A stretch of DNA of 21,418 nucleotides from positions 1 to 21,418 of IMG/VR virus record IMGVR_UViG_3300030406_001549. One strand, 5' to 3'. A program made the position numbers and the translations under genes. Origin of the DNA: a virus. Shown here in pieces: positions 16,674 through 19,526 of this stretch (position 1 is the first letter of the stretch; each line of letters opens with the position of its first letter). The notes under the pieces were generated by a model, which ran no database searches, was not told the DNA's origin, and saw only the letters and a list, made by a program, of their open reading frames with translations.

Positions 16674-16696
16674 GTTGACTGTGAAATAACAATAGT

Positions 16697-16744
16697 GAGA
16701 GATTGTGAGTCTCTCAGTAAATCCCCGAAGGGACTTAGAGAGAG
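16697..16744 (-). promoter_or_regulatory. cUUCGg stem-loop with competing hairpin (copy 1)
   Basis: Minus strand. CTCTC, a 2x2 internal loop, an 8-bp stem closed by C-UUCG-G, and GAGAG form one long hairpin (16744-16711). GAGAGA can instead pair with TCTCTC at 16702-16697 around a 7-nt loop. It lies in the leader of the 47-residue gene, upstream of TTTCACAGTCA. The shared core with copy 2 is TCTAAGT, the tetraloop and ATTTACTGAG. Confidence 0.75.
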
Positions 16745-16746
16745 AA

Positions 16747-17013
16747 TCATTTAAGGTTCTTGATTTTGTTAACAACCTCTTTCAATTCTTTAAAGGCTTG
16801 ATTAACTTCATAGTTGTTAATCTTCATTCTATTCTTGAAGTCATCCCATAGAGCATTACGGTCAATGAGTTGAATGTCAGGTAGATGTGATTGCACTTTA
16901 GTTAATGTAACAGGTTGTTGCTTGGTAATAGTTACCTTTGATTCATAAGTTTGTTCAGTCATTGTCTTCTTCCTCTTCCTAACTGGCCGAGGTTTGAGTG
17001 TCGTTGTGGACAT
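16747..17013 (-). CDS. Hypothetical 88-residue basic early protein
   Basis: Unrecognised. The first 20 residues are basic and Thr/Arg/Lys-rich (MSTTTLKPRPVRKRKKTM), the middle is Thr/Val/Gln-rich, and the last 40 residues form a charged helix (FKELKEVVNKIKNLK) that may be coiled coil. A nucleic-acid-binding role is possible from charge alone. The leader before the ATG at 17013 is TTTTCACAATT, without Shine-Dalgarno. Its stop is followed within two bases by a cUUCGg stem-loop. Confidence 0.7.
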   Translation of the reverse strand: MSTTTLKPRPVRKRKKTMTEQTYESKVTITKQQPVTLTKVQSHLPDIQLIDRNALWDDFKNRMKINNYEVNQAFKELKEVVNKIKNLK

Positions 17014-17036: not shown

Positions 17037-17115
17037 TGGGAGTGTTAGTCCCAAGGCCAGACTAAGGAATCGAACCTTAGTGTTTACCATACTGGCAGAA
17101 GGCTATTTGCCTCCT
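17037..17115 (-). other. tRNA-like RNA module D
   Basis: Minus strand, three stems in a row. Hairpin AGGAGGC-AAATA-GCCTTCT over the stop codon (17115-17097); minihelix at 17096-17056 with outer stem GCCAG/CTGGC, a 12-nt linker containing TGGTAAA (D-loop-like), and a canonical T-arm with 7-bp stem and loop TTCGATT; then hairpin TGGGA-CTAACAC-TCCCA (17053-17037). A complete tRNA does not fit: anticodon arm and full D-arm are missing. Confidence 0.75.
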
Positions 17116-17285
17116 AGTATATCATCCTCCTCATCATAACATATCTGCTCTTCGATACATTTGAGGAGGTTTGTGTAAACAATTGCTACATCTTCATCAG
17201 GATGTTGTGAATTAGTACGCAAATAATCAAGAATGAGATACCATTGAGTTTCATTTAGCCCTACATAGTAGAGAGTTTCAGACAT
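17103..17285 (-). CDS. Hypothetical 60-residue acidic early protein
   Basis: Unrecognised. The ATG at 17285 (MSETLYYVGLNETQW) overlaps the stop of the upstream gene (ATGTCTGA), so I prefer it to the TTG one codon earlier. The sequence is helical and acidic, with a C-terminal EEQICYDEEDDILGG. The stop codon lies inside a 7-bp hairpin (17097-17115) that directly abuts a tRNA-like minihelix. Confidence 0.7.
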   Translation of the reverse strand: MSETLYYVGLNETQWYLILDYLRTNSQHPDEDVAIVYTNLLKCIEEQICYDEEDDILGGK

Positions 17286-17535
17286 CAACTTGTTTCTCTA
17301 ATTTAGCTTTAGCCCTGCTAACTTGTTGTTCATTGTATCTCTCAGCAGCAAAGTCTGCTGTTGTTAAATGAAAACATTCAATACGGTATTCATCACCGCA
17401 AGATGTATAACAAGACTTTAGTCTATACATTACAGCATCAATATTCTCAAATATTCCTAAGACAGTAGGTGAACCATCGTAAGGACAAATTGAAACAAGA
17501 GTGTAATACTGAGGAGTGTTCGGTTTGTTACACAT
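17278..17535 (-). CDS. Hypothetical 85-residue early protein
   Basis: Unrecognised. Cys is frequent in the middle (KSCYTSCGDEY, IECFHL), and the C-terminal 25 residues form a charged helix (QVSRAKAKLEKQVDV). The pattern TLVSICPYDGSPTVLGIFEN followed by a helix suggests a small alpha/beta fold. The leader TTTTCACAGTCA lies upstream of the ATG at 17535, after a switch-like stem-loop at 17557-17609. It overlaps the next gene by eight bases. Confidence 0.7.
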   Translation of the reverse strand: MCNKPNTPQYYTLVSICPYDGSPTVLGIFENIDAVMYRLKSCYTSCGDEYRIECFHLTTADFAAERYNEQQVSRAKAKLEKQVDV

Positions 17536-17556
17536 AAGGCTGTGACTGTGAAAATA

Positions 17557-17609
17557 GAGTGATAAGAACCACTCAGTAAATGTTAACCGAAGTTAACACT
17601 TAGAGAGTG
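17557..17609 (-). promoter_or_regulatory. cUUCGg stem-loop with competing hairpin (copy 2)
   Basis: Minus strand. CACTC, a 2x2 internal loop, an 11-bp stem closed by C-UUCG-G, and GAGTG form one long hairpin (17609-17570). The same GAGTG (17574-17570) can instead pair with a second CACTC at 17561-17557. It lies in the leader of the 85-residue gene, upstream of TTTTCACAGTCA. Confidence 0.75.
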
Positions 17610-17613
17610 AATC

Positions 17614-17691
17614 TTAAGAATGATTAGTTACATTCTTTAAGAAAATGTAGAGGAGGATTGATAAACAAATCCAGACAATGATTGAAGTCAT
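17614..17691 (-). CDS. Possible 25-residue single-pass membrane microprotein
   Basis: An open frame of 25 codons from an ATG at 17691 to a TAA at 17614. The ATG overlaps the TGA of the upstream 151-residue gene (ATGA), the classic arrangement for translational coupling. The product is almost wholly one membrane helix: IIVWICLSILLYIFL, followed by a polar tail KNVTNHS. A 7-bp hairpin ends at the stop codon, and a conserved cUUCGg stem-loop begins four bases after it, the same gene-end arrangement as at other early genes. Chance cannot be excluded for a frame this short. Confidence 0.5.
   Translation of the reverse strand: MTSIIVWICLSILLYIFLKNVTNHS
17616..17637 (-). other. Hairpin at the stop of the 25-residue gene
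   Basis: Minus strand AAGAATG-TAACTAAT-CATTCTT, 7 bp, ending at the TAA. It belongs to a series of hairpins at early gene ends. Confidence 0.6.
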
Positions 17692-18143
17692 AATTGAGCA
17701 TATCTTGAGTCAGTCATACTACAAACAGGATTAAATCCGTTCTTTTGTAGTAATTCAACTTCTGACTTAGAATAATTAGCATACAATTTGATGGGTTCAT
17801 CATCATCTTCATTGCTTAATTCCTCACATGTTGTTGACTCATACTCATCAACGATTTGAGAACAAATACATTCAACGTAGCACCAAGTTACATCATTTTT
17901 ATACATATCAAGACAGCAATCATTAGCTGTAAAGATATTACTTAAGAACTCAGTTCCGAAGCTTGTAATAATGTAGTCGGTAATCTCTTCTTCATAGTTG
18001 TCAAAGAACTTGATGGTGTCAGCATAATATATGTATTGGCTGCACACACCAGATTGACAACCATGATCAGCGATTTCCTTCGCTTCGTTGTAATCAATTG
18101 TCTCAATGATTTCGTCATAAGCTGATTCAAACTGTTTGCTCAT
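17688..18143 (-). CDS. DUF7222-like acidic, Cys-rich early protein
   Basis: 151 residues from the ATG at 18143 (MSKQFESAYDEI); the preceding GTG and ATG-like codons would read through a hairpin, and the leader CTCACAACAAC before this ATG resembles other early leaders. The segment EIADHGCQSGVCSQYIYYAD then TIKFFDNYEEEITDYI matches the pattern of a phage family of unknown function I recall as DUF7222. Ten Cys residues and an acidic block (SNEDDDEP) are notable. No function can be assigned. Confidence 0.7.
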   Translation of the reverse strand: MSKQFESAYDEIIETIDYNEAKEIADHGCQSGVCSQYIYYADTIKFFDNYEEEITDYIITSFGTEFLSNIFTANDCCLDMYKNDVTWCYVECICSQIVDEYESTTCEELSNEDDDEPIKLYANYSKSEVELLQKNGFNPVCSMTDSRYAQL

Positions 18144-18167
18144 GTTGTTGTGAGATAGTGGACAGAA

Positions 18168-18232
18168 TGACACATATTAGTGTCAATGATCTCAAGAGGA
18201 ATTGCACCTCTTCAATGATACTAATGAGATCA
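18168..18232 (-). other. tRNA-like RNA module C
   Basis: Minus strand. Minihelix at 18232-18187: perfect 7-bp stem TGATCTC/GAGATCA, 14-nt linker, T-arm-like AGAGG-TGCAATT-CCTCT. One base later a hairpin TGACAC-TAATAT-GTGTCA (18185-18168). The module lies in the leader of the DUF7222-like gene. Confidence 0.75.
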
Positions 18233-18248
18233 GGAAATGCGGGCTTAT

Positions 18249-18276
18249 GTTATACTAACTGCCGCGTGACTGTGAA
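18249..18276 (-). promoter_or_regulatory. Weak candidate promoter P3
   Basis: On the minus strand TTCACA (18276-18271), 16-base spacer, TATAAC (18254-18249). No upstream box is present, and the TTCACAGTCA part is shared with two leaders that are not promoters, so this may be a chance match or a leader remnant. Confidence 0.35.
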
Positions 18277-18281
18277 TGTTA

Positions 18282-18296
18282 ATTAGTGAGACTAAT
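18282..18296 (-). other. Hairpin over the stop of the KTSC-like gene
   Basis: Minus strand ATTAGT-CTC-ACTAAT, 6 bp with a 3-nt loop, containing the TAG. Confidence 0.55.
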
Positions 18297-18525
18297 CAGT
18301 GAAGCCTAATTGATAAGGTCTCTCAGCATTTAATAGGTTAGTGTTAACCCAACTGCCGATAGATGTATCAGGTGTTGACTTATAAAGAAGCTCACGAATT
18401 GCATCAGCTGCTACATCAAAGTATGTGTACTTTCCGCCGTTCTTAAACTCTACTTGAGCGATTCTTTCAAGTTCATCAACATTTAGTTGGTTAACAGCAG
18501 AAGATTTTACGTTGAGTGATTGCAT
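18292..18525 (-). CDS. KTSC-domain-like protein
   Basis: 77 residues, start ATG at 18525 (MQSLNVKSSAVNQLNVDE). The order SSAV, a strand, VEFKNGGKYTYFDV, a helix ending ELL, and SIGSWVNTNL fits the small KTSC domain (SSxI ... xxFxxGxxYxYxxV ... G.xxNxxI), found alone in phages and fused to lysyl-tRNA synthetases. Its function is unknown, with links to RNA suspected for the fused forms. The stop lies within a short hairpin (18282-18296). Confidence 0.65.
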   Translation of the reverse strand: MQSLNVKSSAVNQLNVDELERIAQVEFKNGGKYTYFDVAADAIRELLYKSTPDTSIGSWVNTNLLNAERPYQLGFTD

Positions 18526-18562
18526 GATGATTGTGTTAATTAGTGAATGAATAGTTTGTGTT

Positions 18563-18578
18563 AGTTAGTAGACTAACT
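18563..18578 (-). other. Hairpin over the stop of the 53-residue gene
   Basis: Minus strand AGTTAG-TCTA-CTAACT, 6 bp with a 4-nt loop, containing the TAG. Confidence 0.6.
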
Positions 18579-18734
18579 GTTTAGTTCAACTATGTCTGAT
18601 GAATGCAGGATTTCATAGAAGTTTTTACTATCAAATCGCTGTGTATTCATTAACTTAAACTTAGCAGAATCGTAATCGGAATGATTACTTAAGGCGATAG
18701 TTTCGCCAGGTTGTTGTTGAACAACGTACCACAT
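18573..18734 (-). CDS. Hypothetical 53-residue early protein
   Basis: Unrecognised. The ATG at 18734 (MWYVVQQQPGETIALSNH) is preferred to earlier codons because it follows a leader, TAACACAAACT, that resembles those of neighbouring genes, and because the longer frame would run into the hairpin at 18760-18779. The product is soluble-looking and mixed alpha/beta. The stop lies within a hairpin at 18563-18578. Confidence 0.65.
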   Translation of the reverse strand: MWYVVQQQPGETIALSNHSDYDSAKFKLMNTQRFDSKNFYEILHSSDIVELNS

Positions 18735-18759
18735 AGTTTGTGTTAGATAGTTGGATGAT

Positions 18760-18850
18760 TTGACTCTTGATTGAGTCAATAACCTGAGCAGGACTTGCAC
18801 CTGCTAAATGTCTATTACTTCAGGCTAAGTTAAATTGCTTCGATGCAATT
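18760..18850 (-). other. tRNA-like RNA module B
   Basis: Minus strand. Hairpin AATTGC-ATCGAA-GCAATT at the stop codon (18850-18833), then the minihelix at 18826-18781: 7-bp stem AGCCTGA/TCAGGTT (one G-U), 15-nt linker, T-arm-like GCAGG-TGCAAGT-CCTGC. One base later a hairpin TTGACTC-AATCAA-GAGTCAA (18779-18760). Confidence 0.75.
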
Positions 18851-19039
18851 AACTAGGTTGTAATCGATGCCGTAATGTTCACATAACTGTTCATCAGGAT
18901 CTTGATAAATACCGTCACGAACTTCATAAGGAACATCATCAACAATTACATCCAATTCACCTTGATTGTATTGATACTTAAGACCAAGATCTTCAAGATG
19001 TTTGTATGCATGATCTTTGAAATGAATCAATGCTTTCAT
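18830..19039 (-). CDS. Hypothetical 69-residue early protein
   Basis: Unrecognised. It starts at the ATG at 19039 (MKALIHFKDHAYKHLEDLG) about 70 bases downstream of a strong promoter (-10 at 19107-19112). The sequence is helical, acidic in the second half (DVIVDDVPYEVRDGIYQDPD). The last codons and stop form a 6-bp hairpin (18833-18850), and a tRNA-like minihelix follows three bases after the stop codon. Confidence 0.7.
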   Translation of the reverse strand: MKALIHFKDHAYKHLEDLGLKYQYNQGELDVIVDDVPYEVRDGIYQDPDEQLCEHYGIDYNLVNCIEAI

Positions 19040-19106
19040 AGTTAAATAGTGAAGAACAGTTGTTGATAAATAAGGAAGAGATTGTCTCTCCTTTATTCAT
19101 ACTTAT

Positions 19107-19163
19107 AGTATAACAGAGTTTCAGTGATAATGCAAGCACTTGTTACACTCTGTAATAATGATA
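19107..19163 (-). promoter_or_regulatory. Early promoter P2 with the same upstream box
   Basis: On the minus strand: TTGCAT (19135-19130), 17-base spacer, TATACT (19112-19107). The identical 17-bp box TATCATTATTACAGAGT (19163-19147) again lies exactly 11 bases upstream of the -35. It would drive the gene at 19039 and those beyond, adding to read-through from P1. Confidence 0.85.
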
Positions 19164-19267
19164 CATAACGTTGAACAGTTAGTATCAATGAGATTGGCAG
19201 GAATTGCACCTGCATTGTTATTAACAATTCTCTCATAATCTCAAGGGAGTTAGTGTTATCCTCTCCC
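19159..19267 (-). other. tRNA-like RNA module A
   Basis: Minus strand, after the first early gene. A 5-bp hairpin spans the stop codon (19267-19245). Then comes a tRNA-like minihelix at 19243-19189: 7-bp stem TGAGATT/AATCTCA, a 23-nt insert containing the self-complementary ATTGTTAATAACAAT, and a T-arm-like hairpin GCAGG-TGCAATT-CCTGC. One base later a stem TGATAC/GTATCA (19187-19159) follows; its end overlaps the P2 upstream box. Confidence 0.7.
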
Positions 19268-19469: not shown

Positions 19470-19526
19470 AATATAACATGTATCGGAGTCTAAGTCAATA
19501 GTACTTCATACTCTGTAATAATGATA
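19470..19526 (-). promoter_or_regulatory. Early promoter P1 with upstream box
   Basis: On the minus strand: TTGACT (19498-19493), 17-base spacer, TATATT (19475-19470), a near-consensus sigma-70-type promoter for host RNA polymerase. The 17-bp box TATCATTATTACAGAGT (19526-19510) lies 11 bases upstream of the -35. The first gene starts 29 bases after the -10. Confidence 0.88.

Follow-up and report, generated by a model that had tools for sequence, protein, structure and literature searches.

We found that a family of tRNA-shaped modules lacking an anticodon arm is widespread in viruses of marine cyanobacteria, where its members stand just ahead of early genes. The family is described here from the 21,418-nucleotide (nt) IMG/VR virus record IMGVR_UViG_3300030406_001549 (positions 1 to 21,418, the whole of which we call the window) and from its relatives. 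Because the modules are located before early genes and are swapped with complete tRNA genes, they probably mark sites at which host tRNA-trimming enzymes cut viral mRNA. Every gene of the window is on the - strand, including those for a T7-type RNA polymerase, a primase/helicase, a DNA polymerase and a terminase, and the nearest cultured relative is Cyanophage NATL1A-7, with about 75% nucleotide identity across half of the query; on the basis of this gene set and similarity, we assign the window to the Autographiviridae, as an uncultured T7-like cyanophage. Its early genes occupy about 15.0-19.4 kilobases and are read right to left. The initial annotation had placed tRNA-like modules in four gaps between them, and all four are found there, on the transcribed strand:

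17056..17096, - strand: M1, anticodon-less tRNA-like module; acceptor GCCAG/CTGGC of 5 base pairs (bp), linker TATGGTAAACA, T-loop TTCGATT
17037..17053, - strand: M1 downstream hairpin, TGGGA-loop-TCCCA; the ATG of the next gene (17013) is 23 nt further on
18187..18232, - strand: M2, anticodon-less tRNA-like module; 8-bp acceptor TGATCTCA/TGAGATCA, T-loop TGCAATT
18168..18185, - strand: M2 downstream hairpin, TGACAC/GTGTCA; 24 nt ahead of the ATG (18143) of a DUF7222 gene
18780..18827, - strand: M3, anticodon-less tRNA-like module; 8-bp acceptor AGCCTGA/TCAGGTT, D-like arm with loop AATAG, T-loop TGCAAGT
18760..18779, - strand: M3 downstream hairpin, TTGACTC/GAGTCAA; 25 nt ahead of an ATG (18734)
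19189..19243, - strand: M4, tRNA-like module; 7-bp acceptor TGAGATT/AATCTCA, linker hairpin ATTGTT/AACAAT, T-loop TGCAATT
19159..19187, - strand: M4 downstream hairpin, TGATAC/GTATCA

The modules display the canonical tRNA arrangement of a 7-bp acceptor stacked on a 5-bp T-stem with 0-1 nt between them, M1 having only 5 acceptor pairs and a T-stem of effectively 7 bp. Their linkers measure 10-23 nt and ARAGORN finds no tRNA in the window, in agreement with the earlier statement that they are not tRNAs and have no anticodon arm. Behind the acceptor there is no encoded CCA, an element on which cyanobacterial RNase P depends little. The downstream hairpin begins 0-2 nt past each of the four, and M4 is the exception in spacing, standing about 120 nt ahead of the next long gene (ATG 19039). 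Folded as single sequences, M2, M3 and M4 have z-scores of -3.4, -4.0 and -2.5, respectively, and M1, with only -1.7, is the weakest and least certain copy. A nearer parse of the M4 acceptor, proposed by a covariance model described below (R2), was dropped, as the orthologue L142 shows compensation in the far parse.

A pointer to function comes from the exchange of these modules with complete tRNA genes in the same slots, which we defined by clustering the genes downstream of each module. In the alignment with the relative L130, the M2 slot is occupied by a tRNA-Asp(GUC): only the tRNA body is exchanged, the DNA to either side being closely similar, the hairpin behind it identical and the gene that follows nearly so. 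The M1 slot holds a tRNA-Gly(UCC) in 7 relatives, and the M1 linker TATGGTAAACA resembles the D-loop of tRNA-Gly, the anticodon arm being gone. The slot of the DUF7222 gene contains 21 tRNA-length modules and about a dozen minihelix modules. Across the related uncultured contigs, ARAGORN reports 37 distinct tRNA-Asp(GUC), 12 tRNA-Gly(UCC) and almost no other species. The discriminator base is G or T in these full tRNAs and mostly A or C in the minihelices, among which neither it nor the acceptor sequence is conserved. Of the two roles offered earlier, the core of the tRNA-like punctuation reading is strongly favoured by slots that hold tRNA-Asp or tRNA-Gly in close relatives with the same hairpin and leader; mimicry of tRNA for a host factor is disfavoured by the lack of conservation in both acceptor sequence and discriminator base. 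As an observation on its own, the early-region tRNAs of uncultured relatives are almost solely Asp(GUC) and Gly(UCC), and ARAGORN detected no tRNA gene in the cultured early regions that were fetched.

Several searches delineate the family. A descriptor constrained solely in the T-loop core, in the pairing of T-stem and acceptor and in a hairpin behind them was run on 365 loci (3.07 Mb); at a score of at least 30, it gave 38 short-linker matches on the sense strand and 0 on the antisense strand (0, 1 and 0 in shuffles), and at a score of at least 28, 57 sense and 4 antisense matches (1, 2 and 1 in shuffles). A covariance model built from M3 orthologues alone recovers M2 (E 7.7e-6) and M4 (E 2.9e-3) and matches phages P-SSP10, S-TIP37, P-SSP2, S-SBP1, S-RIP2 and Syn5 (E at most 0.05), with a marginal match in S-CBP2 (E 0.67). 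The wider model R2 recovers M1, which lies outside its training set (E 0.009), has all 71 of its 71 matches on the sense strand and matches 11 of 20 whole phage records (19 cyanopodoviruses and a pelagiphage control). It finds no match in T7 or in two pelagiphages, which were accordingly rejected as wider family members. Module copy number differs between genomes, the copies per genome being lower bounds as the contigs are partial. Querying with the Syn5 RNA polymerase for further contigs yielded only 2 loci, and Rfam gave 0 matches at gathering score in the window (searched up to E of 1) and in 10 cultured-phage early regions.

Covariation in relatives, the absence of which the initial annotation had named as refuting its idea, was examined and found: compensatory changes are abundant in the M3 and M4 sets and in the wider alignment. 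M3 was aligned with 7 orthologues, including that of NATL1A-7 (alignment A1), and RNAalifold, given no structure as input, returned an acceptor, a small arm, a T-arm and a hairpin, with 7 pairs showing double compensatory changes. In this set, the acceptor/D/T structure has 90% of its cells paired versus 28-43% when the partners are slid. The M4 orthologues (three in all, including L104 and L142) show changes on both sides of the acceptor, linker hairpin and T-stem, e.g., GAGATT/AATCTC to GGAATT/AATTCC in the acceptor. A fitted 29-sequence alignment is 96.5% paired versus 31-44% in its control, and, because this alignment is biased towards the structure, cleaner evidence comes from the M3 and M4 sets.

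The modules also appear to retain the tertiary elbow of tRNA. The earlier claim that they lack D-arms proved wrong for most of the family: most relatives carry a D-like arm of 3-4 bp with a loop of 5-6 nt between acceptor and T-arm. In M3 it is reduced to 2-3 pairs and its loop AATAG fits the rule given below; M2 shows no clear arm, and the linker of M4 holds a longer, different hairpin. In the T-loop, U54, C56, R57 and A58 are invariant in 56 minihelices and position 55 is U or G, defining two classes, TTCRANY and TGCRANY. In tRNA, the GG of the D-loop contacts U55 and C56. Among G55 modules with a clear arm, the small loop ends in AG in 21 of 22 and contains GG in none; GG is present in the small loop of 9 of 11 T55 modules, and of the two exceptions, one also allows a reading with GG. 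The p-value of this class rule is 1.4e-6, and that of a cruder test ignoring arm quality, which points in the same direction, 6e-6; both are optimistic because the sequences are related. The rule is clean because the test is limited to the loop; "GG anywhere in the linker" was discarded as a poor test, as GG occurs in stems too. Both T-loop classes, each with its matching small loop, are found inside single slots (the M3 slot and that of a KTSC gene). The natural reading, for which the support is statistical rather than structural, would be that the modules retain G19-C56 and substitute A18-G55 for G18-U55, since C56 is invariant and the loops co-vary. Because a D-like arm is present and its loop co-varies with T-loop position 55, we term these predicted structures anticodon-less "top-half tRNAs".

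The geometry downstream of the modules is likewise constrained. In full tRNAs, the best following hairpin starts 0-1 nt past the discriminator in 41 of 50 cases (about 18% in shuffles), and 17 of 23 minihelices, in whose selection hairpins played no part, show the same spacing. The ATG of an open reading frame of at least 35 amino acids lies within 60 nt of the hairpin end in 82% of cases versus 41% at random positions; measured from the hairpin end, distances to the ATG cluster at 20-27 nt, and a minor group lies at 8-14 nt. Two tRNA-Asp genes without a tight hairpin (L029 and L201) have instead a GCCAGA...TCTGGC pairing with a loop of about 31 nt holding TATACGAAGTTAT. This string is presumably identical to one loxP arm, which we take to be probably chance or a library artefact.

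From their orientation and spacing, the genes around the modules are likely to share one transcript. Its candidate host-RNA-polymerase promoter, which would yield a polycistronic early RNA carrying M1-M4, is the top promoter-like site of the window:

19470..19498, - strand: TTGACT-17-TATATT with TG before the -10; a consensus match only, upstream of the first early gene

The fold and its covariation, the orientation and position of the modules, the slot exchange and the hairpin spacing are observed features; with these in hand, we think it rather likely that the modules are exapted tRNA punctuation that splits and stabilizes early mRNAs, where cleavage, the identity of the enzymes and the effect on mRNA stability are what we infer. 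The modules would be tRNA genes or derivatives that have lost the anticodon arm and decoding role and retained the parts read by tRNA-maturation enzymes, namely the stacked acceptor/T-arm, the T-loop and usually its D-loop partner. Within the long early transcript, the fold of each would be a tRNA elbow, cut on the 5′ side by host RNase P and immediately past the discriminator base by host RNase Z. After the latter cut, the freed downstream mRNA would begin, at its very 5′ end, with a hairpin of 6-7 bp that potentially protects this end from 5′-end-dependent decay; behind it would come a short leader without structure and then the start codon. For this job, a full tRNA and a minihelix in the slot would be equivalent. 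Acceptor/T-arm hairpins are RNase P substrates (PMC11143913), RNase P processes mRNAs and several phage-induced RNAs, and protein-only RNase P processes plant mitochondrial t-elements (PMC4919922). PMC3997798 cites a role of RNase Z in mRNA decay and stabilization by 5′-terminal stem-loops. The broader proposition, that complete tRNA genes and anticodon-less elbows are interchangeable mRNA-processing marks across a large virus group, with an A18-G55 elbow keeping the tRNA shape without the modified T-loop uridine, has in our estimate slightly better than even chances.

Several points weigh against tRNA punctuation. Hairpin substrates and those with an altered D-arm are miscleaved with greater frequency by E. 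coli RNase P (PMC4919922), the replacement of U55 by G55 abolishes the site of pseudouridine 55 and could make recognition weaker, and the downstream hairpin could hinder RNase Z. The fold of M1 is weak (z -1.7), and the relatedness of the sequences makes the p-values optimistic. Moreover, 9 of the 20 scanned records, 8 of them cyanopodoviruses, have no R2 match, and the device is therefore not essential to that group.

Being a compact double structure directly ahead of a start codon, the fold and its hairpin could alternatively work uncleaved, as a roadblock that stops 5′-3′ or 3′-5′ exonucleases or insulates the start codon from upstream folding. We regard this as unlikely: a plain strong hairpin would suffice, leaving the T-loop conservation and D/T-loop pairing unexplained, and the modules exchange with full tRNAs that retain Asp or Gly anticodons and characteristic discriminators and would need excision to act as tRNAs. 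A released element might also act in trans, binding or occupying either a host factor that handles tRNAs or a defence protein that senses them, and the tertiary elbow retained through D/T-loop co-variation, the several copies per genome and the adjoining early genes of unknown function would suit such a mimic. However, acceptors and discriminators vary freely (mostly A/C in minihelices, G/T in tRNAs) and there is therefore no aminoacylation identity, and the modules stand strictly ahead of start codons and have a hairpin attached, which indicates a cis role, making this a distinctly improbable account.

Slightly less probable still are promoters, attenuators or terminators, which are suggested by hairpins that begin with TTGA, like a -35 box, and by one T-rich hairpin tail. 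No promoter-like site of our scan coincides with M1-M4, most hairpins have no T run behind them, and the stems change sequence yet keep pairing, which speaks for RNA structure. In a search of the four downstream hairpins for intrinsic terminators (GC-rich hairpin and T run), only that of M1 reached the pattern, with a weak tail; the promoter/terminator reading of the hairpins was thus left unsupported by the scan. A Syn5-type phage promoter, ATTGGGCACCCGTAA (PMC3950665), was likewise rejected for the TTGGG hairpins, whose stems also change sequence and keep pairing. That the modules are tRNA pseudogenes in decay, or integration sites derived from tRNAs, and now serve no role is the least probable, for although M1 resembles a tRNA-Gly minus its anticodon arm and tRNA genes are common attachment sites, the covariation already contradicts this, with compensatory changes keeping every stem after loss of the anticodon arm, several unlinked slots being occupied per genome and the D/T-loop rule holding.

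The four gaps described in the initial annotation are indeed early, but the modules are not strictly so: related copies that follow the same D-loop/T-loop rule precede the major capsid gene in several phages (with the gene checked for the three listed below), and the device is therefore not confined to early genes:

P-SSP7, AY939843, 20633-20683 (L368): capsid-gene module upstream of the major capsid gene
Syn5, EF372997, 19841-19917 (L369): capsid-gene module upstream of the major capsid gene
S-SBP1, MT424636, 19299-19407 (L370): capsid-gene module upstream of the major capsid gene

Weaker matches of this kind, likewise ahead of the major capsid gene, are present in S-CBP3 (21327), S-TIP37 (20512), P-SSP2 (27143) and P-GSP1 (40151). 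The capsid-gene leaders of the distant phages P-SSP7 and S-SBP1 have in common the string GACGGTGGGATAGACCACA just downstream of the module, which hints at a further conserved element in the leader. Another kind of repeated leader consists of CTCTCTAAGT-hairpin-ATTTACTGAG and then a hairpin that uses the GAG strand again; it occurs in the window at 17557-17617 and 16696-16752 (both - strand) and at L011, L012, L030, L348 and L352. With CACTC or CTCTC on both sides, only one of its two pairings can form at a time in the window copies. This leader ends in the same kind of hairpin and leader as the tRNA-like modules. The G-poor motif TTCACAGTCA(C) recurs in early-gene leaders without tRNA-like modules (e.g., before ATG 17535 and ATG 16673) and also near 18275, and TGTYCAC stands behind the hairpins in many leaders with modules. 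The DUF7222 gene (PF23864; window 17691-18143, - strand), a candidate early host-takeover gene, is the most frequent module neighbour, with 34 loci in its slot cluster, which was built by single-linkage and may include a second gene family.

If tRNA punctuation is correct, its mode of action would be of a known kind, that of mitochondrial punctuation and t-elements, and the novelty would lie in the setting, the interchangeability and the two-class elbow. As in mitochondria, where RNase P and RNase Z excise tRNAs from between mRNAs, tRNA or tRNA-like units stand between co-oriented genes of a putative polycistronic transcript, directly before the next frame; unlike them, the phage units belong to a T7-like phage, often have no anticodon and have a dedicated hairpin behind them. 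Plant mitochondrial t-elements, as mentioned in PMC4919922, are likewise non-decoding tRNA-like folds proposed to mark mRNA ends for tRNA enzymes, whereas the phage modules precede start codons in multiple copies per genome, swap with true tRNAs in close relatives and form two co-varying D-loop/T-loop classes. Like the early RNase III sites of T7, the modules would cut and stabilize early mRNAs in a T7-like phage, but they are tRNA-like rather than long imperfect RNase III hairpins, and R2 matches nothing in T7. The C4 antisense RNA of P1/P7 is a phage RNA for which processing by host RNase P is known, but it is a single regulatory RNA and not a repeated mRNA-leader family. The tRNA-like domain of tmRNA has the same acceptor, T-arm and reduced D-loop without an anticodon; the modules, unlike tmRNA, have no reading frame, Ala identity or encoded CCA, and ARAGORN and Rfam report none. 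The tRNA-like gene of halovirus HF2 (PMC8707807), an attP site, was rejected as a precedent, being different. In the literature searched, the coverage of which is incomplete, we found no paper that describes cyanophages or other phages with tRNA-like leaders or tRNA punctuation.

The hosts of these phages are the group of the ocean's most abundant photosynthesizers, and the maturation of the phages' early polycistronic RNA is not described in the literature searched. The slot exchange constitutes a natural experiment separating the decoding and processing roles of a tRNA gene, in which the anticodon is lost and the processing shape kept, and the co-switch of D-loop and T-loop provides a natural way to learn which contacts in the elbow are required by tRNA-maturation enzymes. 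The finding would also suggest a reason other than codon supply for the one or two tRNA genes carried by some phages.

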